From contig NZ_CP132480.1 in assembly GCF_030770395.1 (NCBI RefSeq), forward strand, positions 3,491,802 through 3,555,801: a stretch of DNA of 64,000 nucleotides, written 5' to 3'. The first letter of the stretch is position 1. The number at the start of each line of letters is the position of its first letter. The translations under genes and the position numbers were made by a program. Below are positions 11,120 to 23,990 of the stretch, piece after piece. Below the pieces are notes generated by a model, which saw only the letters and a list, made by a program, of their open reading frames with translations, did not search any database and was not told the DNA's origin. The DNA is from Telluria beijingensis. Its GTDB lineage: Bacteria; Pseudomonadota; Gammaproteobacteria; Burkholderiales; Burkholderiaceae_D.

Positions 11120-12352
11120 CTAGCGCCGGTCCTGTTTCAGCACCAGGCTGTGCGCCGGCGCGAAACTGGCATGCAGCGGCAGGTAGGCGGCGCCAACCAC
11201 CTTGGCCGCCGCGCCCGTGGTGCCGGCCATGAGCAGCGGCCGCTGTGTGCCCTGCCAGCTATAGCGCGTCATGTTTTCCTGCATCGCCTCGATCAGCTGC
11301 GCGAGCAAGGCGCGGCTGACGGCGCCATCGACGATCACGCCATCCAGGTCGAGCAGGCAGGCCGCGCCAGTAACGCCGAAGGTAATCGCATTGGCCGCTT
11401 CCGTGATCCACTGCCGGGTCACGGCTTCATACGGCGCGGCCAGCATGCGTTCGTCGCTGAACGCCAGCAGTTCCAGCCCGGCCTGCGCATGCATCTCTTC
11501 CAGCCGCACCAACGACGCCGCGCCGAGCAGCTGCGGCGCCGCGCCGCGCTCGTCGCCGCCGGCCAGGCCCAATGGCATCGACCCGATCGCACCAGCATTG
11601 CCGAACTGGCCGCTATGCGGTTCGCCATCGATCACCAGCCCGCCGCCGACCAGGGCGTCGACGAACACGTACAGGTAGCTTTTCAGTGTCCGTCCGCGCC
11701 CGGCCACCAGCTCGGCCACGCTGGCCGCGATCGTGTCCTTGGCGAAGTCCACGCGCAGTGGCGTCATGGCCTGCAGGCGCACCCGCATATCGGTGCGGCG
11801 CCAGGCTTCGGCATCCTGCGGCAGCAGGCTTTCCAGGCCGTGCCAGGTGCCCAGCGTGAGCGGCGCCGCCAGGCCGATGCCGGTCAGGCGCGGCGCGAGT
11901 TCAGGGCCGAGAAAGTCGTCCACCTCGCGCAGCCTGGCGTCGATGGTGGCGAATACCTGTTCCACCTCGGGGCTGGCGTAGGGCGTCGACGACTGCCAGC
12001 GCAGCGCGCCCGTGAAGTCGAGCAGCACCACGTCCAGCGCGCGCCGTCCGATCTGGATGCCGATCGAGAACGCGCCGTCCGGATTCAGCGCGATCGGCTG
12101 CGATGGCTGGCCCACCTTGCCGCGCACCGATTCGCGCTTGAGCACCAGTTTCTCGTCCAGCAGGCGGTTGATGATTACCGACGCCGTTTGCGTACTGAGC
12201 CTGGTGATGCGCGCCACTTCGGCCTTGGGCAGGCTGCCGTGGGCGCGGATCGCCTGCAGCACCACCCGCTCGTTGAACTCGCGCATGCCGACGTGGTTCG
12301 AGCCGACGGTGGGCAGCAGCGGCAGGGCGGAAGGGTCGGGGGAAGGCTGCAT
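11120..12352 (-). CDS. ROK-family transcriptional regulator
   Basis: A 410-residue NagC/XylR-type protein. An N-terminal winged helix-turn-helix (about residues 24-85: MREFNERVVLQAIRAHGSLPKAEVARITRLSTQTASVIINRLLDE) is joined to a ROK sugar-kinase-like domain (from about 95). That domain has DTIAASVAE, a VFVDALVGGGLVIDGEPHSGQFGNAGAIG stretch and LDLDGVIVDGAV. ROK kinases normally carry a zinc-binding CxCGxxGC loop; I do not see it here, which fits a regulator rather than a kinase. The start is the ATG at 12352. The adjacent co-directional MFS gene ends 77 bases upstream, so the pair may be co-transcribed or the regulator may control the transporter. The effector is presumably a sugar and is unknown. 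Confidence 0.88.
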   Translation of the reverse strand: MQPSPDPSALPLLPTVGSNHVGMREFNERVVLQAIRAHGSLPKAEVARITRLSTQTASVIINRLLDEKLVLKRESVRGKVGQPSQPIALNPDGAFSIGIQIGRRALDVVLLDFTGALRWQSSTPYASPEVEQVFATIDARLREVDDFLGPELAPRLTGIGLAAPLTLGTWHGLESLLPQDAEAWRRTDMRVRLQAMTPLRVDFAKDTIAASVAELVAGRGRTLKSYLYVFVDALVGGGLVIDGEPHSGQFGNAGAIGSMPLGLAGGDERGAAPQLLGAASLVRLEEMHAQAGLELLAFSDERMLAAPYEAVTRQWITEAANAITFGVTGAACLLDLDGVIVDGAVSRALLAQLIEAMQENMTRYSWQGTQRPLLMAGTTGAAAKVVGAAYLPLHASFAPAHSLVLKQDRR

Positions 12353-12429
12353 GGGCACGGCGTTCGATGGGAAAAGACGGCAGGATCCCGCCAGTATAAA
12401 TCCTTCCCATCGAGATCGGCCCATGCCGC

Positions 12430-13680
12430 CTATTTTTCGGGCCGATCCAGGTTGCGCAGCGCCGGCGACAGGAAGCCGCTCAGGCTCACCAGCGTGCCGG
12501 CCACGCCGATCGCGACGAACAGCCAGCGGATGCCGAGCGCCTCGCCCAGCGGCGACGCCAGCGCCAGCCCGACCGGCGCCGCCAGCGCCATCACCATGTT
12601 CAGCAGCGACAGCACCCGGCCCTGCAGGTGGTTCGGGATCGTCAATTGCAGCAGGGTGGTCAGCGGCGTGTTCCCGGCGATGAAGGCCGCGCCGCTCAGG
12701 CCCCACCAGAACACCGCCACCCCGAACAGCGTGGGCGGCACCAGCGCCGTCAGCGCCAGGGCCGCGCACGAGCCGCCGAAGCCCAGCAGGATCCACGGCA
12801 TGCCGTGGCGCGGCGCGAGCGCCGTCACGAACATGCCGCCGGCGATCATGCCGACGCCGGCCATCGCCTCCATGAAGCCCACCTGCGGCGCGCCGCCGCC
12901 GAAGTATTCCTTGACCAGGAGCGGCACCAGCGTGAACGCCGGCATGATCACCAGCACCACCGCGCCGAGCAGCAGGTACAGGCGCAGCAGGCCAGGGCTG
13001 GAAGTGACCACTGCCAGCCCGGTGCGGAACTCGCGCCACAGGCCTTGCCGGTCTTCAGCCGCCACGCGCGGCTGCGGGATGCGGAACAGCAGCAGCGGCA
13101 CGATGCCCAGCAGGGCGGTGCCGACGTCGATCCCCAGCGCCCAGCCCATCGGCAGGACGCTGATCGCCAGCGCGCCGAGCGGCGCCGCGGCGACCGTCAT
13201 CAGCGCCTGCACCGTCTGGCTCAGGCCCACCGCGCGCGGCAAAAAGCCGGGCGGCACCAGCATCGCCACGCTGGCCCCCGCCGCCGGGGCCTGGAAGGCC
13301 TGCATCGCGCTGCGCACCGCCAGCATCGTGTAGACCTGCCACAGCGCCACGCTGTCGCTCAGGAACAGCACGATCAGCGCCACCATGCACAGCGCGCTCA
13401 CCAGGTCGGCGCAGATCATCAGCAGGCGCCGGCTGTAGCGGTCGGCCAGGGTGCCGCCGAGCGGGCTCAGGACCGCCTGCGGCAGCAGGGCCGCGATGCC
13501 GGCCGTCGCTAGCGCCGAGATGTCGCCGGTGGTGTCGGTGATCCACCACAGCAGCACGAACTGGGTCAGCGCGGAGCCGAGCAGCGACAACGACTGGCCG
13601 GCGAAGACCAGGCCGTAGCGCAGCTTCCAGGGCGAGCCGGGGGCGATTGCGGAGTCAGGCGAAGGCGAAACAGAGGTCAT
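12430..13680 (-). CDS. MFS transporter (EntS/enterobactin-exporter-like)
   Basis: A 416-residue inner-membrane protein with about 12 hydrophobic segments. The N-terminal half has the MFS loop motif GGTLADRYSRRLLMI. PLTTLLQLTIPNHLQGRVLSLLNMVMALAAPVGLALASPLGE in the C-terminal half is typical of the EntS/MFS_3 drug or siderophore exporter group. The substrate is not predictable. The start chosen is the ATG at 13680 (MTSVSPSP...WKLRYGLVFAGQSLS); the frame is open upstream, but those residues are not MFS-like. It is transcribed away from the cobalamin riboswitch and is probably not part of that regulon. Confidence 0.85.
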   Translation of the reverse strand: MTSVSPSPDSAIAPGSPWKLRYGLVFAGQSLSLLGSALTQFVLLWWITDTTGDISALATAGIAALLPQAVLSPLGGTLADRYSRRLLMICADLVSALCMVALIVLFLSDSVALWQVYTMLAVRSAMQAFQAPAAGASVAMLVPPGFLPRAVGLSQTVQALMTVAAAPLGALAISVLPMGWALGIDVGTALLGIVPLLLFRIPQPRVAAEDRQGLWREFRTGLAVVTSSPGLLRLYLLLGAVVLVIMPAFTLVPLLVKEYFGGGAPQVGFMEAMAGVGMIAGGMFVTALAPRHGMPWILLGFGGSCAALALTALVPPTLFGVAVFWWGLSGAAFIAGNTPLTTLLQLTIPNHLQGRVLSLLNMVMALAAPVGLALASPLGEALGIRWLFVAIGVAGTLVSLSGFLSPALRNLDRPEK

Positions 13681-13844
13681 GAGGTGTGCGGCGGCGAGGC
13701 TGGTCGAACAGCGCATTGTGACCCGGATCGATGGCAATCGGGTGACAGTTGGATGGAGATTCGATGGACGGTATCCGCTCCCGCGAAAAAATAATGCGGT
13801 GACAACGGTACATACTTGGCGGTAGAATCGCCCCCAATCAAGTG

Positions 13845-14036
13845 AATGGTGCCTTCCTGCTCGTCTGCAGGGAGGTGAAACGGGAAGCCGGTGACGTGTG
13901 CGATATCCATCGCGCGCCAGTCCGGCGCAGCCCCCGCTGCTGTAAGCCTGACGACCCCGGTCGAACGCCACTGTGCCCCGTGCACGGGAAGGCAGGACCG
14001 GGGAAGGAAGACGGCGAGCCAGAAGACCGGCCCTTC
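13845..14036 (+). promoter_or_regulatory. Cobalamin (AdoCbl-type) riboswitch
   Basis: The sequence contains the conserved core in order: GGTGCC (about 13848), GAGGTGAAACGGGAAGCCGG (about 13872), the B12-box region GCAGCCCCCGCTGCTGTAAG (about 13928), then GCCACTG..GGGAAGGC and the closing GCCAGAAGACCGGCC near 14018. These are hallmarks of the Rfam cobalamin riboswitch. The downstream leader (14037-14231) has no open frame I would defend. I see no clean intrinsic terminator there, so control by ribosome-binding-site sequestration is more likely than attenuation. The gene behind it starts at 14232. Expression is expected when cobalamin is scarce. Confidence 0.95.
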
Positions 14037-14231
14037 ACGATGCATACGTACGTCCCGGGGTGAGGGCGTGCCTGTTGGTTGTCCGCTGTTCCTTCTTTCA
14101 TCGTTCGTGCGATTGCCGTCGTGCTCTTTCGCGTGCGTGGCGCGCGCGTGGACGTCCCCGTTCATCGTGGAAGGACTGCGGCTGCCGGTAGTCGTGCGCG
14201 CCTGGCGCGCAGCTGAAAGGTCGAAGTTCAC

Positions 14232-17200
14232 ATGAACGCTTCTCTGCTAGTCCGCCTGCGGACCTTGCTGGTGCTCGCCTGCGCATTCGCCGGCGTCCCC
14301 GCGGGCGCCGCCACCCTGTTCGCCGTGGTCACCGAGCGCGCCGCGCCGGGCGCCATCGAGGCCGCCCACCGCCACCTGGCCAGTCATCCGCAAGACCGCA
14401 TCCTGCTGCGCACCCCGGCCCAGCTGATGGCCGCCGGCGAGCGCGAGGTAGGGCAGTGGATCGCCGGCGCCGACACCGTGCTGGCGGTGTCGCTGTTCGG
14501 CGACCCGGCGCGCCGCATGAAGGATGCGCTGGCGCGCCACGCCCGGCCGGCCACCGCGGTGCTGGCGCTGAACGGCGAGGCGACCCTGAACCTCATGACG
14601 CGCTCGCGCCACGGCAGCCTGGCCGGCTTCTCGCCCGAGCTGCTGCGCCAGCTGGCGAGCGAAGCGCCGCCGCCGGCCGCGCTGCAGGCGGCCGAGGCCG
14701 ATCCTGCGGCCGGCCACTGGCTGGCCGCGCGTCGCGTATGGCAGGCGGGCGGCGTGGACAACACCACGGCGCTGATGCGGCATCTGCTCGATCCGGCCAA
14801 GCCCCTCGGTCCTCCGCAGCCCGAGCCCACCCTGCGCCTGCGCGCGGGCCAGCGCGAGCTGCAGGACGCCGAAGCCTGGGGCAATGCAGCGAAGCTCGGC
14901 CTGCGCGACCGGCCCACCGTGGTCGTGCTCGACCTGGCAAACATGGATGGTGTGGTGCCGGCCGCGCTGTGCCGCCGCATCGAAGAACTGGGCCAGCCCT
15001 GCGTGCAGCTGCTGACGCGCTGGGGCGGCGCCTCGCGCGAAGCCCTCGAGCGCCTGCCCGAACTGGTCGCGCCGGCCAAGCCGGCCGCGCTGGTGGTGCT
15101 GCAGGACTTCGTGGTCGGCGCCGCAGAGGGCCGCGAGGCGGTGGGCGAGGCCTTCAAGCGCCTTGACATCCCGGTGTTCAAGGCGATCCGGCTATCGGAC
15201 CGCACGGCGGTGCAATGGCAGTTGTCGCCCGACGGCCTGCCGCCCGATTCGGTCCAGTACCGCGTGGCCCTGCCCGAGCTGCAGGGCATCGGCCAGCCGA
15301 TGGTGGTGGCGGCCCTGGGCCAGGCCCAGCGCGACCGCCAGACCGGCATCGAGAATCGCCCGCCCGTCGTGCTGCCGGCCGAGGTCGACCGCCTGGGCAG
15401 CCGTGTGGCGCGCTGGCTGGCGCTGCGCGCCAAGCCCAATGCGGACAAGAAGATCGCGATGGTCTACTACAACCACCCGCCGGGCCGCCAGAACATCGGT
15501 GCCGACAACCTGAACGTGCCGGATTCGCTGTTCGAGATGCTGCACGCATTGAAGGCATCCGGCTATACCGTCGGCGACTTGCCGGCCACGCCCGAGGCGC
15601 TGCTCGACATGATCATGGCGCGCGGCGTCAACCTGCCGGAAGACCGCGCTGCCCTGCGCGAACTGGCCGGCACCGTCAACAGCGTCAGCGCCGCGGACTA
15701 CGCGCGCTGGTTCGCCACCCTGTCGCCGCGGGTGCGGGGCGAGATGCAGGATGGCCTGCTGGGCCGCCTGCACGCCGACGTGCTCACCGCCGAGGCGAAG
15801 GGCGAGCGCGCGCTGGGCCGCAAGCAGGCCGAGACCGTGATCGAGGAGCTGCTGCACCTGGTCGAGGGCGTCGACCATCCGCAGCGCCAACAGGCCACGC
15901 GCGACCTGCATGCGCTGGAAGACGGCTATATGGCCTGCCTCGATGAAGCCAGGCCGCGTCCCTGCCAGTCGCTGGCGCCTCTGTATCGGCGCCTGATCGG
16001 CTACGGCATCGAAGGCATGCGCGGCTGGGGGCCGGCGCCGGGCAAGGTGATGGTCGACAGCGGCAAGCTGCTGGTGCCGGGCCTGGTGTTCGGCAACGTC
16101 TTCATCGGTCCGCAGCCGCCGCGCGGCTGGGAGGTGGACGAGGAACTGCTGCATGCGAACACCAGCATCACGCCACCGCACCAGTTCCTGGGTTTCTATC
16201 ACTGGATCCGCGACCGCTTCAAGGCCGACGCCGTGGTGCACGTGGGCCGCCACTCGACCTATGAATTCATGCCCGGCAAGGCGGTGGGCCTGTCGAGCGA
16301 CGACTATCCGAGCCTGATCGCCAGCGACCTGCCGGGCATCTACCCGTACATCGTCGACGGCGTCGGCGAAGGCACGCAGGCCAAGCGCCGCGGCCTGGCC
16401 ATCATCGTCGACCACCTGACGCCGCCGCTGGCCACCACGCCGCTGTACGACGAGCTGCTGTCGCTGCGCCAACTGGTCGAGAGCTTCGAGGCCGCGTCGT
16501 CCGAGTCGCTCAAGACCCAGGCCGCGCAGCTGATGCGCGAGCGTGTCGTGGCCCTCAACCTGCGCGCCGAGCTCGAAGCGTCGATGTCCGACGTGCTCGA
16601 AGTGCGCGGCATCGGCTTCGACGCGGCCGACGACGACCTGCTGGCGCACGAGATCGGCCACTATCTGACCAAGCTGCAAGAGAAGTTCATGCCCCACGGC
16701 CTGCACGTGTTCGGCCGGCCGTGGAACAAGGAGTCGCTCGACCTGATGCTCGACTCGATGAAGAAGAGCGGCATCGACGACCCGGAAGTCGCGCACAAGC
16801 TGCGTGACTCGCCGCGGCGCGAGATGGCGGCGCTGCTGGCGGGCCTGGATGGCCGCTACATCGAGCCGGGCAAGGGCAACGATCCGCTGCGTTCGCCCGA
16901 GGCGCTGCCCACGGGCCGCAACTTCCATGCAGTCGACGGCGACATCCTGCCGACCCGCCTGGGCTATGGCCTGGGCCTGCAGATGGCGGGCAAGGCCGCG
17001 GAACGCGACAAGGTGGGCGAGGGCAGCGAGGGCAGCGAGGGCATCATCCTGTGGGCCTCGGATGCGGTGCGCGACGAAGGCGTGATGGTCGGCTTCGCGC
17101 TGGCCATGATGGGCGCCGAGCCGGTGTGGAATGCGCGCGGCATCGTCACCGACGTCAAGCTCCCGCCCGGCGCCGTGCGGCGCGACGCGGTGGTGACGAC

Positions 17201-18608
17201 GTCCGGCCTGTTCCGCGACCTGTACCCGAACCTGATCCGCCTGATCGACCGCGCCGGCCGGCTGGCGCTGGCGGCGTCGGCGCAGAACCTGGTCGAGCAG
17301 GATCCTTCGTTGCGGCCAGCCCTGCAGGCTGCGCTGGCGCCGATCGAAGGTGCGGTATGGGGCAGTGAGGCGCCGACCGGCAACCGCGTGGCGCGCGAAT
17401 GGCTGAACCGCCAGCGCGCGCTGGTCGCCGGCGGCCTGCCGGCCGCCGACGCCGGCCAGGCGGCGGCGCTGCGCGTGTTCGGCGATGCGCCGGGCGCGTA
17501 TGGCGCCGGCGTGAACCGCCTGACCGAGCGCTCCGGCGCCTGGCGCGAGCGCGACGAGATCGGCCGTGCCTACCGCAACCGCATGGGCCACGCCTATGGC
17601 CTCGATGCCGAGGGCGAGTCGCGCCACCGCGCCTTCGACGTGGCGCTGGACGGCATCCACCGCACCTACCACGGCCGCGCCAGCAACCTGTACGGCCTGC
17701 TGGACAACAACGACGCCTTCGACTACCTGGGAGGCCTGTCGCTGGCGGTCGAGACCCGCACCGGGCGCGTGCCGGAAGCCCTGATCCTGCAGCACGCACG
17801 GCCGGGCCAGGCCGACGTCGAGCCACTCGCCAGCGCGCTGCTGGGCGAGCTGCGCGGACGCTTCCTGAACCCGGCCTGGCTGCGGCCCTTGATGGACAAC
17901 GGTTATTCCGGCGCGCGCACCATGGGCCAGGAATTCATCGAGAACCTGTGGGGCTGGCAGGTGACCCGTCCCGACCTGGTCAAGAACTGGGCCTGGGACG
18001 AAGTAAAAGCCGTGTACTTCGACGACCGGCACAAGCTCGGCCTGCCGGAATTTTTGGGCCAGCGCCATAACGCACACGTGAAGGCACACATGCTGGCGGT
18101 GTTCATGGTGGCGGCCGAGAAGGGCTACTGGAAGACCGATCCGGAGACCATCCGCCGGATGGGCGGCGAACTCGCGCGCCTGGTGTCGGCCAATGGCCTG
18201 CCGGGCAGCGGCCACACGACGCCGGACCACCCGATGTGGGGCTGGCTGGCGCCGCAACTGGATGGCGCGGACGCGCAGCGGCTTGGCGTGACGCTGGCCA
18301 AGGCGCGCGGCGAGCTGTTGCCGGCGTCGGCCTTGGCCGTTCCTACCGTTTCTGCCAATCCCGCTCCCGCTGCGCCGGCGCAGCAATCAGCAGCGCCCGA
18401 CGCTGGCGATGCAACTGAACCCGCCCCGCCGGCGCCGGCGCCCGAACCGGTGCGCGTCTACGAATTGAAGCAGCAGCCCGAACCCGCGCAGCCGGCCGCG
18501 CTGCGCATCGTGCAGGCGCTGGCCATCCTGGCCGCCTGCCTGGCTTTGTTCTCGCTCGGCCTGTGGCGCGGCCGGCACATCCCTCAACCTGCAAGGAGTC
18601 ATCCATGA
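14232..18608 (+). CDS. CobN/BchH-like chelatase with signal peptide and C-terminal membrane anchor
   Basis: 1458 residues, homologous to the large subunit of cobaltochelatase and magnesium chelatase. Core motifs include MVYYNHPPGRQNIGADNLNV (about 410), HVGRHSTYEFMPGKAVGL (about 669), WASDAVRDEGVMVGFALAMM (about 941), TSGLFRDLYPNLI, RVFGDAPGAYGAGVNRL and LLDNNDAFDYLGGLSLAVE. Unlike biosynthetic CobN, it begins with a signal peptide (RLRTLLVLACAFAGVPAGAA, cleavage near residue 27). It ends with a Pro/Ala-rich linker (about 1370-1423), one transmembrane helix (about 1425-1445) and a short basic tail, placing the chelatase domain in the periplasm. It is the first gene behind a cobalamin riboswitch and shares an ATGA overlap with the next gene. 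No cobalamin synthesis genes and no AAA+ partner (CobS/T, ChlI/D) are nearby. The inferred role is metal insertion into or removal from an imported corrinoid or tetrapyrrole; HmuS of Bacteroidetes haem loci is the closest analogy I know. Confidence 0.88.
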   Translation: MNASLLVRLRTLLVLACAFAGVPAGAATLFAVVTERAAPGAIEAAHRHLASHPQDRILLRTPAQLMAAGEREVGQWIAGADTVLAVSLFGDPARRMKDALARHARPATAVLALNGEATLNLMTRSRHGSLAGFSPELLRQLASEAPPPAALQAAEADPAAGHWLAARRVWQAGGVDNTTALMRHLLDPAKPLGPPQPEPTLRLRAGQRELQDAEAWGNAAKLGLRDRPTVVVLDLANMDGVVPAALCRRIEELGQPCVQLLTRWGGASREALERLPELVAPAKPAALVVLQDFVVGAAEGREAVGEAFKRLDIPVFKAIRLSDRTAVQWQLSPDGLPPDSVQYRVALPELQGIGQPMVVAALGQAQRDRQTGIENRPPVVLPAEVDRLGSRVARWLALRAKPNADKKIAMVYYNHPPGRQNIGADNLNVPDSLFEMLHALKASGYTVGDLPATPEALLDMIMARGVNLPEDRAALRELAGTVNSVSAADYARWFATLSPRVRGEMQDGLLGRLHADVLTAEAKGERALGRKQAETVIEELLHLVEGVDHPQRQQATRDLHALEDGYMACLDEARPRPCQSLAPLYRRLIGYGIEGMRGWGPAPGKVMVDSGKLLVPGLVFGNVFIGPQPPRGWEVDEELLHANTSITPPHQFLGFYHWIRDRFKADAVVHVGRHSTYEFMPGKAVGLSSDDYPSLIASDLPGIYPYIVDGVGEGTQAKRRGLAIIVDHLTPPLATTPLYDELLSLRQLVESFEAASSESLKTQAAQLMRERVVALNLRAELEASMSDVLEVRGIGFDAADDDLLAHEIGHYLTKLQEKFMPHGLHVFGRPWNKESLDLMLDSMKKSGIDDPEVAHKLRDSPRREMAALLAGLDGRYIEPGKGNDPLRSPEALPTGRNFHAVDGDILPTRLGYGLGLQMAGKAAERDKVGEGSEGSEGIILWASDAVRDEGVMVGFALAMMGAEPVWNARGIVTDVKLPPGAVRRDAVVTTSGLFRDLYPNLIRLIDRAGRLALAASAQNLVEQDPSLRPALQAALAPIEGAVWGSEAPTGNRVAREWLNRQRALVAGGLPAADAGQAAALRVFGDAPGAYGAGVNRLTERSGAWRERDEIGRAYRNRMGHAYGLDAEGESRHRAFDVALDGIHRTYHGRASNLYGLLDNNDAFDYLGGLSLAVETRTGRVPEALILQHARPGQADVEPLASALLGELRGRFLNPAWLRPLMDNGYSGARTMGQEFIENLWGWQVTRPDLVKNWAWDEVKAVYFDDRHKLGLPEFLGQRHNAHVKAHMLAVFMVAAEKGYWKTDPETIRRMGGELARLVSANGLPGSGHTTPDHPMWGWLAPQLDGADAQRLGVTLAKARGELLPASALAVPTVSANPAPAAPAQQSAAPDAGDATEPAPPAPAPEPVRVYELKQQPEPAQPAALRIVQALAILAACLALFSLGLWRGRHIPQPARSHP

Positions 18609-19063
18609 TCGAAACCCTCTCTTCCGACTTTATTTCCTATGGGTGGCTGCACGACGCCGTCAGCTGGCTGCTCGCGCCATCCCTGGTGGCGCTGCTGATC
18701 GGCTGCGCGATCGCGCTGGTCGAATCCGGCATCGCCGTCGGCGAACGCTTCCACGGCCTGGCCAAATTGCGCGACAGCGGCAATGTCGAGGCGGTGCAAC
18801 GCATTGCCCGTCACCGCCTGGAACGCGCCGACCTGCTGGCGCGCATCCCGCCGATGCTGGGCCTGATGGCCACCATCATCCCGCTCGGACCGGGCCTGGC
18901 GGCGCTGGGTGAAGGCGATCCGGCCAAGCTGGCCAGCGCCGTGACCGTCGCCTTCGACGCCACCGTGCTGGGCCTGGTGGCGGGCATCGGCGGCCTGGTG
19001 ATCGGCAAGCTGCGCCGCCGCTGGTACGAAGAGACGCTGGACGCAATGGAGCCGCAAGCATGA
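18605..19063 (+). CDS. MotA/TolQ/ExbB-family proton channel protein
   Basis: A 152-residue inner-membrane protein with three hydrophobic segments: LLAPSLVALLIGCAIALVESG (about 20-42), PMLGLMATIIPLGPGLAALG (about 82-102) and VAFDATVLGLVAGIGGLVIG (about 113-133). The P-M-L-G-L..T..PLGPGL and FDATVLGLVAG signatures are those of TolQ/ExbB helices that use the proton-motive force to drive an envelope machine. It is shorter than canonical ExbB (about 240). The start at 18605 has AAGGAGT upstream, and the ATG overlaps the stop of the CobN-like gene (ATGA), indicating translational coupling. It probably pairs with the following DUF2149 protein to energise either the chelatase or the TonB receptor of this operon. 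Confidence 0.85.
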   Translation: MIETLSSDFISYGWLHDAVSWLLAPSLVALLIGCAIALVESGIAVGERFHGLAKLRDSGNVEAVQRIARHRLERADLLARIPPMLGLMATIIPLGPGLAALGEGDPAKLASAVTVAFDATVLGLVAGIGGLVIGKLRRRWYEETLDAMEPQA

Positions 19064-19380
19064 GCGGGCGAGGCCGATTGCGGCTTTACCGCCACCTCGA
19101 CGCCCGCTTCGACCAGAGCGACGAAGACCCGCGCGCCAGCCTGGTCAACCTGGTCGACGTGATGCTGGTGTTCGCCTGCGGCCTGATCGCGGCGATCGCC
19201 GGCGCGCAAGGCGCATTCAAGACCCCGCAGCCGGTGGAGAAGGGCCGCCAGATCGAGCGGCCCGCCAGCGGCGTCACCCAGGACGGTAGCGGCTACGACC
19301 GCGTCGGCGAGGTGTTCCGCGATCCCAAGACCGGCCAGCTGATGCTGATCGAACCTGCACAAACACAGAGCAAACCATGA
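19060..19380 (+). CDS. DUF2149 protein, ExbD/TolR-like single-span protein
   Basis: 106 residues with a basic N-terminus (RGRLRLYRHLDARFDQS) and one membrane helix (about 26-48). The helix reads NLVDVMLVFACGLIAAIAG and closely resembles the ExbD helix in which an Asp (V-D-V-M-L-V) carries the proton; that Asp is present at about residue 33. A short periplasmic tail ends GYDRVGEVFRDPKTGQLMLIE, characteristic of DUF2149. ATGA overlaps link it to the genes on both sides. From the family and context I infer that it forms a stator-like complex with the preceding ExbB-like protein; the tail is much shorter than the periplasmic domain of true ExbD. Confidence 0.82.
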   Translation: MSGRGRLRLYRHLDARFDQSDEDPRASLVNLVDVMLVFACGLIAAIAGAQGAFKTPQPVEKGRQIERPASGVTQDGSGYDRVGEVFRDPKTGQLMLIEPAQTQSKP

Positions 19381-21458
19381 AAGCCATGAACCGACTGCAT
19401 CCGCTGGCCGCGGCCATCGCCCTGCTGTGCGCCACCGGCGCCGGCGCGCAAGACCTCCCCACCGTGACCATCCAGGGCGCCATGCTCGACGAAGGCCTGG
19501 CGCTCGACCGTCCGCACACGACCGGCAGCCGCCTCGGGATCAGCACGCTCGACCTGCCGGCCAGCGCCGAGAGCCTGAGCGCCGCCACCATCGCCGCGCG
19601 CGGCGACCTGCAGGTCAGGGATGCGGTGACCCGCACCACCGGCCTGACCGACAGCAGCACGCCCGGCAGCGGCATCAGTTATTCGGCGCGTGGCTTCAAC
19701 GGCAACAGCTCGATCGCCCTGCTGGAAAACGGCCAGCGCCTGCTGGTCGGTTCGGGAACGGCGACCTATCCGGCCGATCCCTGGGGCTATGAAACCATCG
19801 AAGTGCTGCGCGGCCCGGGTTCGGTGGTGCACGGCAGCGGCACCACCGGCGCCATCGTCAACGCGGTGCGCAAGATGCCGCGCCGCGAATCCTCGGTCGA
19901 ACTGTTGGGGGGCGTCGGCAGCAGCTCTTCGCTGCGCGCCGGCTTCGGCGCCACCGGCGCCCTGGGCGAGCAGAGCGCCTTTCGCGTCGACGCCTATGCC
20001 GGCCGCAGCGACGGCTTCATCGACCGTGGCGAATCGCGTCACGGCAAGATCCTGACCAGCATGACGAGCACGCTGGCCCCGGGCGTGACGCTGTACGCCC
20101 AGCTGGACCATGCCGAGCAGGAGCCGCGCCGCTATTTCGGCACGCCGCTGGTGAACGGCCGCCTGGCCGGCCACCTGCGCGACCAGAACTACAATGCCGG
20201 CGACGCCGTGCTGCGCTACGTCGACGACAAGGCGATGGCGCGCCTGAACTGGCAGGTGGCGCCGGGCCTGGTCGTCAGCAACGAGCTGGCCTACATGAAG
20301 GCGCGCCGCGACTGGCGCAATATCGAGTCATATGCGTACGATCCGGTGGCCGACATGGTCGACCGCAGCGACTACCTGGCCCTGCGCCACAACCAGGAAC
20401 AGACCGCGAACCGCCTCGAGGCGCGCTGGACGAGCGCGGCCAACCAGTTCATCGCCGGCTGGGAGGCGTCGGCCATCGACTTCAAGCACACCAACAGTTC
20501 GCCGTATCGCGGAGCGTCGACCGTCAGGCCGACCGGCTTCGATCCGGGCCTGTTCGACAGCCCGGACCCGCTGCGGCCCAACTTCGCCACCGACACCACC
20601 ACCCATGCGTTCTACCTGGAAGACGCCTACCGGGCCAGCGAACGCCTGCTCCTGATGGCCGGCGTGCGCCACGACCGCTACAAGGTCGACCGCCGCAACC
20701 TGCTGGCCGACAGCGGCCACTTCGACGCAACACTGATCTCGAACGCGGTGCGCGTGGGGGCGAGCTGGAAGCTGGCGCCGGACACCTCGCTGTATGGCCA
20801 GGTCAGCACCGGCAGCGATCCGGTGACCAGCATCCTGTCGCTGAACCTGGCCAATAACAAGTTCAAGCTGACCAGCGCGCGCCAGCTCGAGGCGGGCGTC
20901 AAGCAGATGCTGGCCGGCGGCCGGGCCGAGTGGACCGCTGCGCTGTACAGGATCAAGAAGGACGACATCATCACGCGCGACCCGAACAATCCGGCCTTGT
21001 CGGTGCAGGGCGGTTCGCAGACTTCGCAAGGCGCCGAGGTGAGCGCCAGCGTGAACCTGGCGGCAGGCTGGCGCATGGACGCCAACGTCGCCTACACGGA
21101 CGCCGAGTTCGACGAGCTGCTCGAGGCAGGCAACGTCTCGCGCGCCGGCAACCGGCCGGCCAATGTGCCGAAGGTGTCCTCGAACCTGTGGCTGACGCAC
21201 CGCGCCGGCGACTGGCGCACGGGCGCCGGCCTGCGCTATGTGGGCAAGCGTTTCATCAGCAATGCCAATACGCAGACGCTGCCGGCATACACCACGCTGG
21301 ACGCCTCGATCGGCTGGGCCCTGCGCCGCAACGTGCAGTTGCAGCTCAACCTGCGCAACCTGACCGACAAGCTGTATGCGATCTCCTCGTATGGTTCGTC
21401 GCAATACCTGCTGGGCGACGAGCGTCACGCCGAGCTGACCGTCCACTGGCGCTACTGA
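19377..21458 (+). CDS. TonB-dependent receptor, probably for corrinoids
   Basis: A 693-residue outer-membrane receptor. A signal peptide (MNRLHPLAAAIALLCATGAGAQ) is followed by a TonB-box-like DLPTVTIQGA and a plug domain (about 40-160, with SYSARGFNGNSS and YETIEVLRGPGSVVHGSGTTGAIVNAV). A 22-strand barrel region then ends in a terminal aromatic (ELTVHWRY), needed for BAM insertion. Plug phrases resemble the siderophore-receptor group (FhuE/FpvA type) rather than classic BtuB. It is controlled by the cobalamin riboswitch and lies downstream of the chelatase/channel genes with an ATGA overlap, so a cobalamin, other corrinoid or tetrapyrrole ligand is inferred. Two start codons (MKA, MNRL) are possible; the first overlaps the upstream stop. 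Confidence 0.9.
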   Translation: MKAMNRLHPLAAAIALLCATGAGAQDLPTVTIQGAMLDEGLALDRPHTTGSRLGISTLDLPASAESLSAATIAARGDLQVRDAVTRTTGLTDSSTPGSGISYSARGFNGNSSIALLENGQRLLVGSGTATYPADPWGYETIEVLRGPGSVVHGSGTTGAIVNAVRKMPRRESSVELLGGVGSSSSLRAGFGATGALGEQSAFRVDAYAGRSDGFIDRGESRHGKILTSMTSTLAPGVTLYAQLDHAEQEPRRYFGTPLVNGRLAGHLRDQNYNAGDAVLRYVDDKAMARLNWQVAPGLVVSNELAYMKARRDWRNIESYAYDPVADMVDRSDYLALRHNQEQTANRLEARWTSAANQFIAGWEASAIDFKHTNSSPYRGASTVRPTGFDPGLFDSPDPLRPNFATDTTTHAFYLEDAYRASERLLLMAGVRHDRYKVDRRNLLADSGHFDATLISNAVRVGASWKLAPDTSLYGQVSTGSDPVTSILSLNLANNKFKLTSARQLEAGVKQMLAGGRAEWTAALYRIKKDDIITRDPNNPALSVQGGSQTSQGAEVSASVNLAAGWRMDANVAYTDAEFDELLEAGNVSRAGNRPANVPKVSSNLWLTHRAGDWRTGAGLRYVGKRFISNANTQTLPAYTTLDASIGWALRRNVQLQLNLRNLTDKLYAISSYGSSQYLLGDERHAELTVHWRY

Positions 21459-21459
21459 C

Positions 21460-22896
21460 GTGGCGTCCTGGAAGCGCCAGCTGCATTGGTGGCACCGCTG
21501 GCTGGGCATCGTCATCGGCCTGCTGGTGCCGCTGTGGTTCGGTTCGGGCATCGTCATGATGTACGTGCCGTATCCCGAGCTGACCGAAGAAGAGCGCATG
21601 GGCTGGCTGGCGCCGCTCGACGCAGGCCGCGTCCAGGTGAAGGCCGATGCCGCGTGGGAGACGACCGCGCTGGCGGGCATGCCGGATGCGGTGCGCCTGA
21701 ACACGGTGGCGGGTCGGCCAGCCTGGCACTTCCAGCATGAACGCAGCTGGCATTCGGTCTGGGCCGACAGCGGCGCACCGCTGCAGGTCGATGACCAGAT
21801 CGTCGGTAGCTGTGCACGCAGCGCGGCGCCCGGCGCCCGATCGCTGGCGATCGACACGATCGACATCGACCAATGGACGTTCGGCGCCGTGCGCGTGCAC
21901 CGGCCCTTGTTCCGGGTCGCCGTCGACGACGCTGCCGGCAGCGTACTGTACGTGTCGGGCCGCACCGGGGAGCTGGTGCGCGACACTACGCGCAGCGAAC
22001 GCGCGTGGAACTGGGTCGGCGCTGTCACCCACTGGCTCTATGTGACGCCGCTGCGCAAGCATGGCGAAGCCTGGAGCCAGGTGGTGATGTGGACCTCCGG
22101 CGTGGCCACGGCGCTGGCCATCACCGGCATGGTGATCAGCATCCAGCGCCTGCGCATCCGCCGCCGCTATGCGGGCGGCAGGATGTCGCCGTATACCGGC
22201 TGGAAGGCCTGGCATCACTGGCTGGGCCTCGGCGTCGGCGTGCTGGTCATCACCTGGCTGTTCAGCGGTTGGCTGTCGATGGGGCCGTTCGGCTTCCCTG
22301 CCGGCGGCAGCATCACGCCGCAGGACCGGCTGGCGTTCGCCGGGGGCGGCGTCGACAGCGGCGACCTGGGGCTGGATGCGGCGGCGCTCCTGCGCGCGCA
22401 TCCCGGCACGCTGGAGCTGGAATGGCGCCGCGTCGGTGGTGCACTGTACCTGAGCGCGCTCGGTCGCAAGGGGCGTACGCTGGTCGATGCGCGCGATGGC
22501 GCCCTGCTGACGGCCCTGCCGCACGAGGCGCTGCTGCGCGCGGCGCAGGCGATCCGACCCGTCGCCGCGATGCAGGCGGAACTGCTCACGGGGCCGGACG
22601 ATTACTACTACAGCCATCACCGCGAAGTGACCTTCCCGGTGCTGCGCGCGCGCTTTGATTTGCCGGAGGCGCCGGTGTTCTACATCGATCCGGCCCAGGG
22701 CCGCCTGGCGGGCTACGTCGATCGCGACAAGCGCTGGGACCGCTGGCTGTTCGACGGCCTGCACCGGCTCGACTTCGCTGTCCTGCGCACGCGGCCGCTG
22801 TGGGATGTGGTGGTGATCGTCTTGTGCGTGCTGGGCTTTGCGCTGACCTTCAGTGGCCTGGTGCTTGGCTGGCGGCATTTGCGCAAGCTTGGGTAG
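21460..22896 (+). CDS. PepSY-domain inner-membrane protein, possible periplasmic reductase
   Basis: 478 residues beginning with GTG two bases after the receptor stop (MASWKRQLHWWHRWLGIVIGLLVPLWFGSG). About four membrane helices flank periplasmic PepSY segments: about 10-33, 200-228 (VVMWTSGVATALAITGMVI), 247-270 (HHWLGLGVGVLVITWLFSGW) and 445-470 (VVVIVLCVLGFALTFSGLVLGW). His residues in the helices (HWWHRW, KAWHHWLGL, DGLHRLDF) are suitable haem ligands, as in the PiuB/FoxB/FpvG group, some of which reduce ferric siderophores in the periplasm. As the last gene of a cobalamin-riboswitch operon it may reduce the cobalt of an imported corrinoid; this is inference. No terminator was found directly after it. 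Confidence 0.85.
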   Translation: MASWKRQLHWWHRWLGIVIGLLVPLWFGSGIVMMYVPYPELTEEERMGWLAPLDAGRVQVKADAAWETTALAGMPDAVRLNTVAGRPAWHFQHERSWHSVWADSGAPLQVDDQIVGSCARSAAPGARSLAIDTIDIDQWTFGAVRVHRPLFRVAVDDAAGSVLYVSGRTGELVRDTTRSERAWNWVGAVTHWLYVTPLRKHGEAWSQVVMWTSGVATALAITGMVISIQRLRIRRRYAGGRMSPYTGWKAWHHWLGLGVGVLVITWLFSGWLSMGPFGFPAGGSITPQDRLAFAGGGVDSGDLGLDAAALLRAHPGTLELEWRRVGGALYLSALGRKGRTLVDARDGALLTALPHEALLRAAQAIRPVAAMQAELLTGPDDYYYSHHREVTFPVLRARFDLPEAPVFYIDPAQGRLAGYVDRDKRWDRWLFDGLHRLDFAVLRTRPLWDVVVIVLCVLGFALTFSGLVLGWRHLRKLG

Positions 22897-22954: not shown

Positions 22955-23022
22955 ATCCGCGACGCCGGTGTGGCTAGACCATCTGGGGCGCGGGGGAAAA
23001 AGCCGGCGCAAGCCGGTTTTTT
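22955..23022 (+). ncRNA. Structured leader ending in a terminator-like hairpin, upstream of the NYN nuclease gene
   Basis: The first part can pair CCGCG (about 22956) with CGCGG (about 22989), enclosing a small TGG-CTAGA-CCA hairpin. The second part (22997-23022) is an 11-bp stem AAAAAGCCGGC / GCCGGTTTTTT with one G-U pair, a GCAA (GNRA) tetraloop and a six-T run, indistinguishable from an intrinsic terminator. It lies between a candidate promoter and the GGAG Shine-Dalgarno sequence of the downstream gene. It may release a short RNA of about 75 bases, or attenuate the gene. It could alternatively just be the terminator of the preceding B12 operon. The family is not recognised. Confidence 0.55.
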
Positions 23023-23039
23023 CATTCTACGGAGCGAAA

Positions 23040-23990
23040 ATGGCAGAAGTACAGGTGACAGCCACCGAGCCGTTGCGTACCCGCATCTATGTTGATGGCT
23101 ACAATCTTTATTATGGTTGTCTGAAGAGTACGCCTTATAAGTGGCTGGACTTGATGACGCTTTTTGAGCGATGCATCCTTCCTTCCAGCGCACCTCCTGA
23201 AAGTGTGTTACTGCCTCTGAGTATCAAATTTTTTACCGCCAAAATACTGGAAAAGGCTGCCAGGGCGCTTGATTCAGTGTCATCACAAGCGCGGTACCAT
23301 ACGGCGCTCCGCAAGCTGTACAGCGAACGGATTGAACTTATCGAAGGCTACTACTCCCTGATCGAGTCGAAAGCCAAGCTCGTAAATCCGACTGCCCCGG
23401 CAACTTGGCCACGCGATTGCCAAGAAACATTGGTCTGGAAGCTTGAGGAGAAACAGTCTGACGTGAATCTTGCACTACAGGCTTATCACGATGCGATCAC
23501 GGGTGAGGTTGATCAAGTAGTGATTGTTACCAACGATACCGATATTGCGCCTGCATTACAGTTGATCCGTACCTACACTAAAGTACAGATAGGACTCGTT
23601 GTCCCATCGCGGACTCGGCAACGGATACCCAATAGTGAACTTGTCGAACTTGCACACTGGGTTCGCACGCACATTACTTTGGAAGAACTGGCGAAGTCTC
23701 AATTGCCTCGGGTAATTGCTGGGCGCAAGCCGACCATGAAACCTGAGTCCTGGTATGCACGGCCGGATTTGCTGGAACGAGTGGTCGCAATGGCACTTCC
23801 GTTTACAGGTAGTCGTGGCAAGGCGTTCAAATGGATGGAGGATCCAAACCCGCACTTGGGCGGGCGGACACCAATCGAGCTGGTCGAGACGGACGAGGGG
23901 GCCGAGCAAGTCATCGCCTATATTGAGCGCTATCAACAACACGTCGCTGGCACGGAGCGGCCCTCTGATGAAGATGGTCACCGTTCTTGA
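23040..23990 (+). CDS. NYN-domain (PIN-like) nuclease fused to a ParS/MbcA/Xre toxin-binding domain (DUF2384)
   Basis: 316 residues, cytoplasmic. The N-terminal NYN/LabA-like domain (about 13-200) carries the expected acidic metal-binding residues: Asp19 in RIYVDGYNLYYG, Asp141 in EEKQSDVNLAL, and Asp166 and Asp168 in IVTNDTDIAPAL. A linker (about 200-248) leads to a C-terminal segment (about 250-305: GKAFKWMEDPNPHLGGRTPI followed by ELVETDEGAEQVIAYIERY). This matches the C-terminal antitoxin/toxin-binding domain of ParS, MbcA and Xre proteins of RES/Xre toxin-antitoxin systems. The start at 23040 has GGAG seven bases upstream. GC content is visibly lower (around 50%) than its neighbours, suggesting acquisition. 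No RES toxin or helix-turn-helix partner is adjacent. Predicted role: a single-strand RNase with a regulatory or partner-binding module, possibly stress or phage defence. Confidence 0.85.
   Translation: MAEVQVTATEPLRTRIYVDGYNLYYGCLKSTPYKWLDLMTLFERCILPSSAPPESVLLPLSIKFFTAKILEKAARALDSVSSQARYHTALRKLYSERIELIEGYYSLIESKAKLVNPTAPATWPRDCQETLVWKLEEKQSDVNLALQAYHDAITGEVDQVVIVTNDTDIAPALQLIRTYTKVQIGLVVPSRTRQRIPNSELVELAHWVRTHITLEELAKSQLPRVIAGRKPTMKPESWYARPDLLERVVAMALPFTGSRGKAFKWMEDPNPHLGGRTPIELVETDEGAEQVIAYIERYQQHVAGTERPSDEDGHRS

Follow-up and report, generated by a model that had tools for sequence, protein, structure and literature searches.

An exported CobN-like chelatase with a proton-motor pair as a candidate corrinoid-salvage module in Telluria beijingensis

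Introduction

What would a CobN-like chelatase do outside the cytoplasm, behind a cobalamin riboswitch, in a bacterium that seems, from its genome, unable to build vitamin B12 itself? The question is raised by a five-gene operon of Telluria beijingensis (RefSeq GCF_030770395.1, contig NZ_CP132480.1), which encodes the chelatase, a pair of small proton-motor-like proteins, a TonB-dependent receptor and a PepSY membrane protein, and which we analysed within a stretch of 64,000 nucleotides (forward-strand positions 3,491,802 to 3,555,801), hereafter the window. We assign the chelatase to BtuS and, on balance, favour the operon being a corrinoid-salvage module built round it, which probably helps the cell to use scavenged B12-type molecules, since many of its relatives sit in B12 uptake or salvage operons.

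Systems of this kind are already known in outline, with BtuS, HmuS and riboswitch-led hmu-like operons all published, so that the idea is less new than first thought. BtuS was proposed in 2003 by Rodionov et al., with BtuS1 and BtuS2 of Bacteroides fragilis, as cited in the available sections of PMC6460266, where it is a CobN-like protein with predicted export and a predicted membrane anchor, like the window chelatase. In 2023, an hmu-like operon of B. fragilis was described behind a cobalamin riboswitch (PMC10100974, in the sections available); that work tested haem iron, whereas the clade of the window protein occurs in proteobacterial corrinoid-salvage operons and has its own active-site signature. 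In 2025, HmuS was shown to act as a haem de-chelatase, its de-chelation being reported as independent of ATP (PMC12583661, likewise in part). The present analysis adds the proteobacterial salvage setting, the coupling of anchor and motor, and the active-site signature; no proteobacterial BtuS in a corrinoid operon was found in the literature searched, a weak negative, with subscription papers mostly outside that search.

The operon and its relatives

The operon comprises the following features, all on the forward strand of the window.

13830..14049, +, cobalamin riboswitch aptamer (RF00174; Rfam 116.3 bits, E 1.8e-28, full model 1-189)
14232..18608, +, BtuS-type CobN-like chelatase, 1458 aa (PF02514, 811 bits)
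18605..19063, +, MotA/TolQ/ExbB-like proton-channel protein, 152 aa (PF01618, 33.4 bits against a cut-off of 22.9)
19060..19380, +, DUF2149 protein, 106 aa, ExbD-like and HmuV-like (PF09919, 32.0 bits, cut-off 27.1, although none of the individual stretches meets the E-value limit)
19377..21458, +, TonB-dependent receptor of siderophore-receptor type, accessory (PF07715, PF00593; TIGR01783 above cut-off)
21460..22896, +, PepSY_TM membrane protein, perhaps FoxB-like, accessory (PF03929, 38.3 bits against 28.8)

The riboswitch, complete and placed ahead of five genes as the initial annotation had stated, far exceeds its Rfam cut-off of 31.5 bits and is the sole above-cut-off Rfam match within the window. 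The three ATGA overlaps that had been described between the genes stand (at 18605, 19060 and 19377), whereas the gap reported as 2 bases is a single base (21459) between the receptor gene and the GTG start of the PepSY gene. No cob or cbi gene was found in the five neighbouring frames scanned (MFS, ROK, NYN, ThuA and a hydrolase), and to that extent the claim that none lies nearby holds.

One scan of genome contigs yielded 79 related loci from Beta- and Gammaproteobacteria, with 46-93% identity in the best segment. A cobalamin riboswitch lies upstream of btuS on the same strand in 78 of them according to our covariance model R1, at most 700 bases away in 42 and farther upstream in 36, the exception being L073, which starts within the cluster, not far from the chelatase gene. 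R1 was built from 10 sequences, among them L024, L039, L045 and L053, which match by construction; Rfam itself finds the riboswitch in all 12 loci submitted to it, these four included. Corrinoid uptake or salvage genes, recognized by comparison with labelled proteins, occur on the btuS strand in 40 of the 79 loci and are of two or more kinds in 37; the kinds met in about half of the relatives are btuB, btuF, btuC, cobO, cobB, cobQ and bluB. The sequence evidence supports the earlier choice of cobalamin rather than haem.

In Methyloversatilis (L053), for instance, the order is riboswitch-btuB-btuC-btuD-cobO-cobB-btuS-motA-duf2149-bluB, with btuF farther along, and Methylotenera (L048) shares the stretch from cobO to bluB. 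Halomonas (L085) has btuB-btuS-motA-duf2149-btuF-btuC-btuD-cobB-cobO-cobQ-bluB, and Marinobacter (L076) has btuB-btuS-btuF-btuC-btuD-cobB-cobO-cobQ-bluB. Genes for both MotA and DUF2149 follow btuS in 63 loci (56 under a strict no-overlap rule plus 7 in which the genes overlap); of the other 16, 12 are from Marinobacter, 3 hold gene fragments and 1 lies at a contig end. The core module is btuS-motA-duf2149, with the TonB receptor and the PepSY protein optional.

In two Zoogloea loci (L032 and L033), the first 3 kb hold a second chelatase-MotA-DUF2149 set of weaker likeness, about 7 kb upstream of btuS. Four close relatives of the window chelatase (P0012, P0030, P0033 and P0067) are publicly named “hydrogenase expression protein HypE” or “cobaltochelatase subunit CobN”, names that look misleading for exported proteins of BtuS type.

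A chelatase clade apart from CobN, and its active site

None of the NCBIfam models for CobN or the magnesium-chelatase H subunit reaches its cut-off with the window chelatase, the best scoring 575 bits against 1619. In a FastTree phylogeny of 60 chelatases, 29 BtuS rows form one clade (support 100), apart from a CobN clade (11 rows, 100) and a BchH-like clade (7 rows, 100), the last two labels being our own and the BchH label resting on length and motifs. IQ-TREE agrees on 35 rows, with support of 100 for both 12 BtuS and 7 CobN rows. Thus, the outcome that the initial annotation had set as its refutation, a chelatase grouping within cytoplasmic CobN, occurred with neither program, and the window protein is CobN-related while being neither CobN nor ChlH. 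A single envelope clade of HmuS and BtuS received support of 88 in FastTree and is not claimed, because IQ-TREE gave it only 64. When the PDB is searched with the family profile, HmuS (9d26) leads with 407.6 bits, followed by ChlH (391.6) and CobN (369.1), whereas the single window protein finds ChlH and HmuS level at 365.2 and 364.4 bits.

In HmuS, His538 faces His1209, replacement of His538 by Ala abolishes turnover, and the ligands of a second haem are Met79 and His254, as described in the available sections of PMC12583661. The window chelatase carries the signature H670-V-G-R-H674-S, E713, A642, D1161 and D1164, in which H674 corresponds to His538 and E713 to Glu577 of HmuS; both counterparts are kept in 81/81 BtuS rows. 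Equally invariant are the motif [HY]xGRHS, in which Arg and Ser adjoin the active-site His, an Ala at the loop position of HmuS His506, an Asp in place of His1209 and an Asp in place of Glu1212. Thus, D1161 occupies the position of the second active-site His of HmuS, where 10 of 11 CobN rows also have Asp. At the columns of Met79 and His254, the window protein has L88 and D292, and none of the 29 BtuS rows has Met or His, the alignment being loose around His254, where a profile comparison places a Glu instead. Because His and Glu are kept while [HY]xGRHS, the Ala and the Asp positions differ, the active site of BtuS looks functional and of neither the HmuS nor the CobN type.

The membrane anchor and the proton-motor pair

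Membrane stretches at both ends of the chelatases were called by hydropathy. The N-terminus of the window protein, MNASLLVRLRTLLVLACAFAGVPAGAA, is signal-like, and a hydrophobic stretch lies near its C-terminus; it is therefore predicted to be exported and membrane-attached, as BtuS should be, and unlike the cytoplasmic CobN, which agrees with the envelope location first proposed for it. A hydrophobic N-terminal stretch is present in 81/81 BtuS rows. For the counts of anchor, motor and signature, L057, L062 and L071, which have no full chelatase frame, were left out.

The C-terminal helix is above threshold in 62 of 80 BtuS rows, absent in 13 from Marinobacter and weak or cut off in 5, and its distribution follows that of the motor genes. 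All 62 rows with the anchor also have MotA/DUF2149, the 13 Marinobacter rows have neither, and the remaining 5 have motor genes (only MotA in the row that lies at a contig end) together with a sub-threshold helix or a cut-off frame; the anchor without the motor occurs in 0/80. In four Marinobacter genomes that we searched, no MotA of BtuS type was found, the best matches reaching 26-33 bits against 228-230 in Halomonas and Parahaliea. Outside the BtuS clade, a motor adjoins 11 envelope chelatases, of which 10 have the helix above threshold and one, L113, just under it; helix and motor are both missing from the 18 rows labelled CobN or BchH-like. Besides, all 12 DUF2149 matches above cut-off in 299 genomes adjoin a PF02514 gene. 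Since anchor and motor go together and DUF2149 keeps to PF02514, the evidence, though it comes down to about three changes on the tree, favours the anchored chelatase over the TonB receptor as the motor's partner, the pairing that had been suggested at the outset. At L107 (11424-15206, 6020-10093) and L121 (8143-11937, 12222-16211), a CobN of cytoplasmic type adjoins an exported, anchored CobN-like gene, and the exported chelatases there have the helix with no neighbouring motor.

Both small proteins fit an ExbB/ExbD-type pair, their PF01618 and PF09919 matches being above cut-off. The profile of the MotA family finds MotA (E 0.0025) and ExbB (E 0.19) weakly in the PDB, while that of DUF2149 gives chance matches only and no true relative by sequence. 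The DUF2149 protein has one predicted membrane stretch containing Asp33, which is invariant in 9 aligned rows and which we take to be the equivalent of the membrane Asp of ExbD, and an NL-x-D/E-like motif recurs in 74 of 78 DUF2149 rows.

The receptor and the PepSY protein

The initial annotation had treated the TonB receptor and the PepSY protein as integral parts of the machine, a view that the relatives do not sustain. Among 38 loci with a direct riboswitch and DUF2149, the 3.5 kb downstream are free of a TonB receptor in 17, 4 have it behind a riboswitch of its own and the other 17 contain one, so both proteins are better described as add-ons. A receptor like that of the window occurs in 16 loci, L117 included, and is accompanied by a window-like PepSY frame in 15, the PepSY match of the sixteenth (L050) being in two pieces. 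The receptor scores 63.8 bits against the 599.7 required by TIGR01779, the model of the vitamin B12 receptor BtuB; its nearest PDB sequence is chain 9rvq (314 bits) and its top fold match is FoxA, the ferrioxamine receptor. For the PepSY protein, a sequence search of the PDB gives nothing below E 0.05 and Foldseek gives a weak top match to the siderophore reductase FoxB; His 12, 191, 252, 253 and 435 are invariant in an alignment of 12. Receptor and PepSY protein may import and reduce a corrinoid or a metal chelate.

The host genome and the corrin-ring marker

The host genome is complete (one contig, 6.02 Mb), and the nearest named protein relatives come from Massilia species. Its only PF02514 protein is the window chelatase, and CbiC/CobH (PF02570), our marker of corrin-ring synthesis, has 0 matches in it, with control matches in 7 of 14 named genomes, so the ring synthesis expected of a host of CobNST is not detected. 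Of its three cobalamin riboswitches, the second is followed by btuB, btuC, btuD, cobO, cobB, cobU and cobD and preceded by cobT, cobS and cobC, and the third is followed by btuB and btuF (frames identified by eye); three FecCD permeases are present, one of them at the second riboswitch. The host thus resembles a salvager of corrinoids that has the usual btu uptake genes, to which the window operon comes as an addition and not as a replacement.

For 50 of the 79 loci, chosen for this comparison, PF02570 was sought in the host genome and was missing in 42, compared with 186 of 299 genomes of the phylum (Fisher p 0.002, kinship ignored). Within the genus, BtuS occurs in 13 of 62 genomes and PF02570 in 12, never together (0 of 13 BtuS genomes against 12 of 49 others; one-sided p 0.043). 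The 12 of 299 genomes with a DUF2149 match above cut-off, most of them with other flavours of the system, all lack PF02570. PF09919 marks this DUF2149 subfamily poorly, for in the whole-genome search the copy in the window went undetected.

That search gave only a weak DUF2149 match at another place in the host genome, G000:C1:1859564-1859719 (locus L103), which at 24.9 bits is below the cut-off and has no PF02514 gene beside it. In the window, the operon is directly followed by a frame (22968-23990, +) that combines an NYN domain with a C-terminal Xre/MbcA/ParS domain; upstream of the riboswitch, the opposite strand carries frames for an MFS transporter and a ROK-family protein (11120-13971, -).

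Other flavours of the system

Among the closest described counterparts is the Bacteroides hmu locus (HmuS with HmuU/HmuV; PDB 9d26), and the likeness that had been noted in the initial annotation extends to the chelatase fold, the anchor helices, the MotA/ExbB and DUF2149 partners and a nearby TonB receptor. Unlike hmu, the window operon has no HmuY or HmuT gene, BtuS lacks counterparts of the HmuS haem ligands Met79/His254 and of His1209, and no riboswitch was found at the hmu locus L104. CobN of CobNST shares with BtuS the PF02514 fold and the Asp at the His1209 position; in contrast, it is cytoplasmic, works with an ATP-driven CobS/CobT ring in corrin synthesis, and falls in a separate clade. 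In Pseudomonas aeruginosa, PA1922-PA1925 are a row of TonB receptor, CobN-like, ExbD-annotated and DUF2149 genes (PMC9431628, PMC4542158), Zur-controlled and induced by zinc shortage (PMC4542158), which we compare by the descriptions in the available sections of these sources only.

Further sets were found on other branches. On plasmid pRUNSL01 of Runella slithyformis (L106), genes for a TonB receptor, MotA, DUF2149 and a CobN-like protein lie among hypF, a HypC-family gene, hypD and hypE, together with a gene annotated as urease accessory protein that we read as HupE-like; no riboswitch was found at this locus, and its setting hints at a nickel flavour of the system. Seven Pseudomonadota loci with the same gene set (L110-L116) yielded no riboswitch either, Rfam having been run on four of them and having found none. 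Outside the BtuS clade, L117 has the order riboswitch-btuB-cobB-btuF-btuC-btuD-motA-duf2149-chelatase-cobO-receptor-PepSY, its riboswitch being supported by Rfam, and on another branch again, plasmid pGLOV01 of Trichlorobacter lovleyi (L105) has a cobalamin riboswitch, by model R1 only, beside BzaF. With such riboswitches at both loci, corrinoid control seems either to have evolved on several branches or to have persisted on them. At L105, an ExbB-ExbD-TonB set and a MotA-DUF2149 set flank one CobN-like gene, with a DUF2162 membrane protein near, as is BzaF.

Function of the module and competing explanations

Judged by its genes and their control, the system is most likely a periplasmic corrinoid handler coupled to the proton-motive force. 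A riboswitch of this kind is expected to turn the operon on at corrinoid scarcity, and the module would be made when cobalamin is low. BtuS would be an exported protein of CobN fold on the outer face of the inner membrane, held by its C-terminal helix; a corrinoid that has passed the outer membrane would be bound in its cavity, the ExbB-ExbD-like MotA-DUF2149 pair would move BtuS through the anchor helix by proton flow, and the processed corrinoid would be passed to BtuF and BtuCD. As to the reaction itself, metal repair, that is, insertion of cobalt into a metal-free or wrongly metallated corrinoid, is the likeliest in our view, though we hold it only tentatively, and in it the proton-motive force would take the place of the ATP-driven CobS/CobT ring. 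A more elaborate version, an extracytoplasmic class I chelatase with cobalt insertion driven by the proton-motive force and with the receptor and PepSY protein supplying a reduced cobalt chelate as metal source, we consider unlikely.

Several observations weigh against this picture. The Marinobacter forms, with neither anchor nor motor, imply that the basic function can do without the motor, and anchor and motor have changed only about three times on the tree, giving 3 independent pairs and no power for a test. HmuS has a motor pair and yet is reported to de-chelate without ATP, so metal insertion is not necessarily what a motor drives; nor are corrinoids without metal, to our knowledge, a common food. 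In 39 of the 79 loci, mostly Massilia and kin plus Zoogloea and including the window type, no corrinoid gene was found on the btuS strand, and the ligand is named there by the riboswitch alone. Among three further loci of the BtuS clade, L118 and L120 have the riboswitch and L119 shows none, its contig ending about 0.75 kb upstream. Finally, PF02570 is present in 8 of the 50 BtuS host genomes, for which completeness is unstated.

The Marinobacter form would suit a protein without metal chemistry, and it is likewise possible, though we lean away from it, that BtuS is a periplasmic corrinoid receptor or hand-over factor that the motor makes release its load to BtuF/BtuCD. The position of btuS among btuB, btuF, btuC and btuD in many loci agrees with such a role, whereas the counterparts of His538 and its carboxylate partner, kept throughout, would be superfluous in a pure binder. 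If instead the motor pair only energised the TonB receptor of its own operon, as has been proposed for HmuU/HmuV, its likeness to ExbB/ExbD would be explained, and the available part of the paper on the B. thetaiotaomicron hmu operon interprets HmuU/HmuV in this way. The receptor, however, is missing within 3.5 kb in 17 of the 38 close loci and stands behind its own riboswitch in 4 more, motor presence tracks the chelatase anchor, and pGLOV01 of Trichlorobacter has MotA-DUF2149 plus a separate ExbB-ExbD-TonB set side by side. DUF2149 was also found, as a search control, in Methanosarcina acetivorans, which has no outer membrane. An energiser of the receptor is thus an improbable account of the pair.

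Removal of cobalt from corrinoids, or of metal from other tetrapyrroles, as HmuS does with haem iron, would fit HmuS being the nearest solved relative by family profile, though ChlH is level with it for the single protein. That cobalt is taken out had been among the initial suggestions, and here the control speaks against it: with the operon expected to be on at corrinoid scarcity and the corrin-ring marker missing from 42 of 50 hosts, it is hard to see what freed cobalt would be used for. Since Met79, His254 and His1209 are kept in none of the 29 BtuS rows as well, we regard removal as distinctly unlikely, and the missing haem ligands likewise lower the case for haem use. Least of all do we expect the operon to supply chelate-derived cobalt for de novo cobalamin synthesis. 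The receptor is of siderophore type, and cobalamin riboswitches control cobalt-uptake genes (PMC7689651, in the sections available), but CbiC/CobH is missing in the host and in 42 of 50 relatives, and within the genus no BtuS genome has the marker that a quarter or so of the others (12 of 49) carry. Cobalt supply was accordingly rejected as the leading account, PF02570 being absent from the host and from most BtuS genomes.

Implications

If the corrinoid-salvage module is what we suppose, bacteria that do not make B12 would have an extra salvage part beyond outer-membrane import and BtuFCD. Envelope chelatases would then be a broader group with a common fold, which separate regulators tie to separate metals or ligands: iron from haem in Bacteroides, control by zinc in P. 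aeruginosa and by cobalamin here. The link between anchor and motor would offer a direct test case for a proton motor driving a chelatase, a job so far assigned to ATPases.

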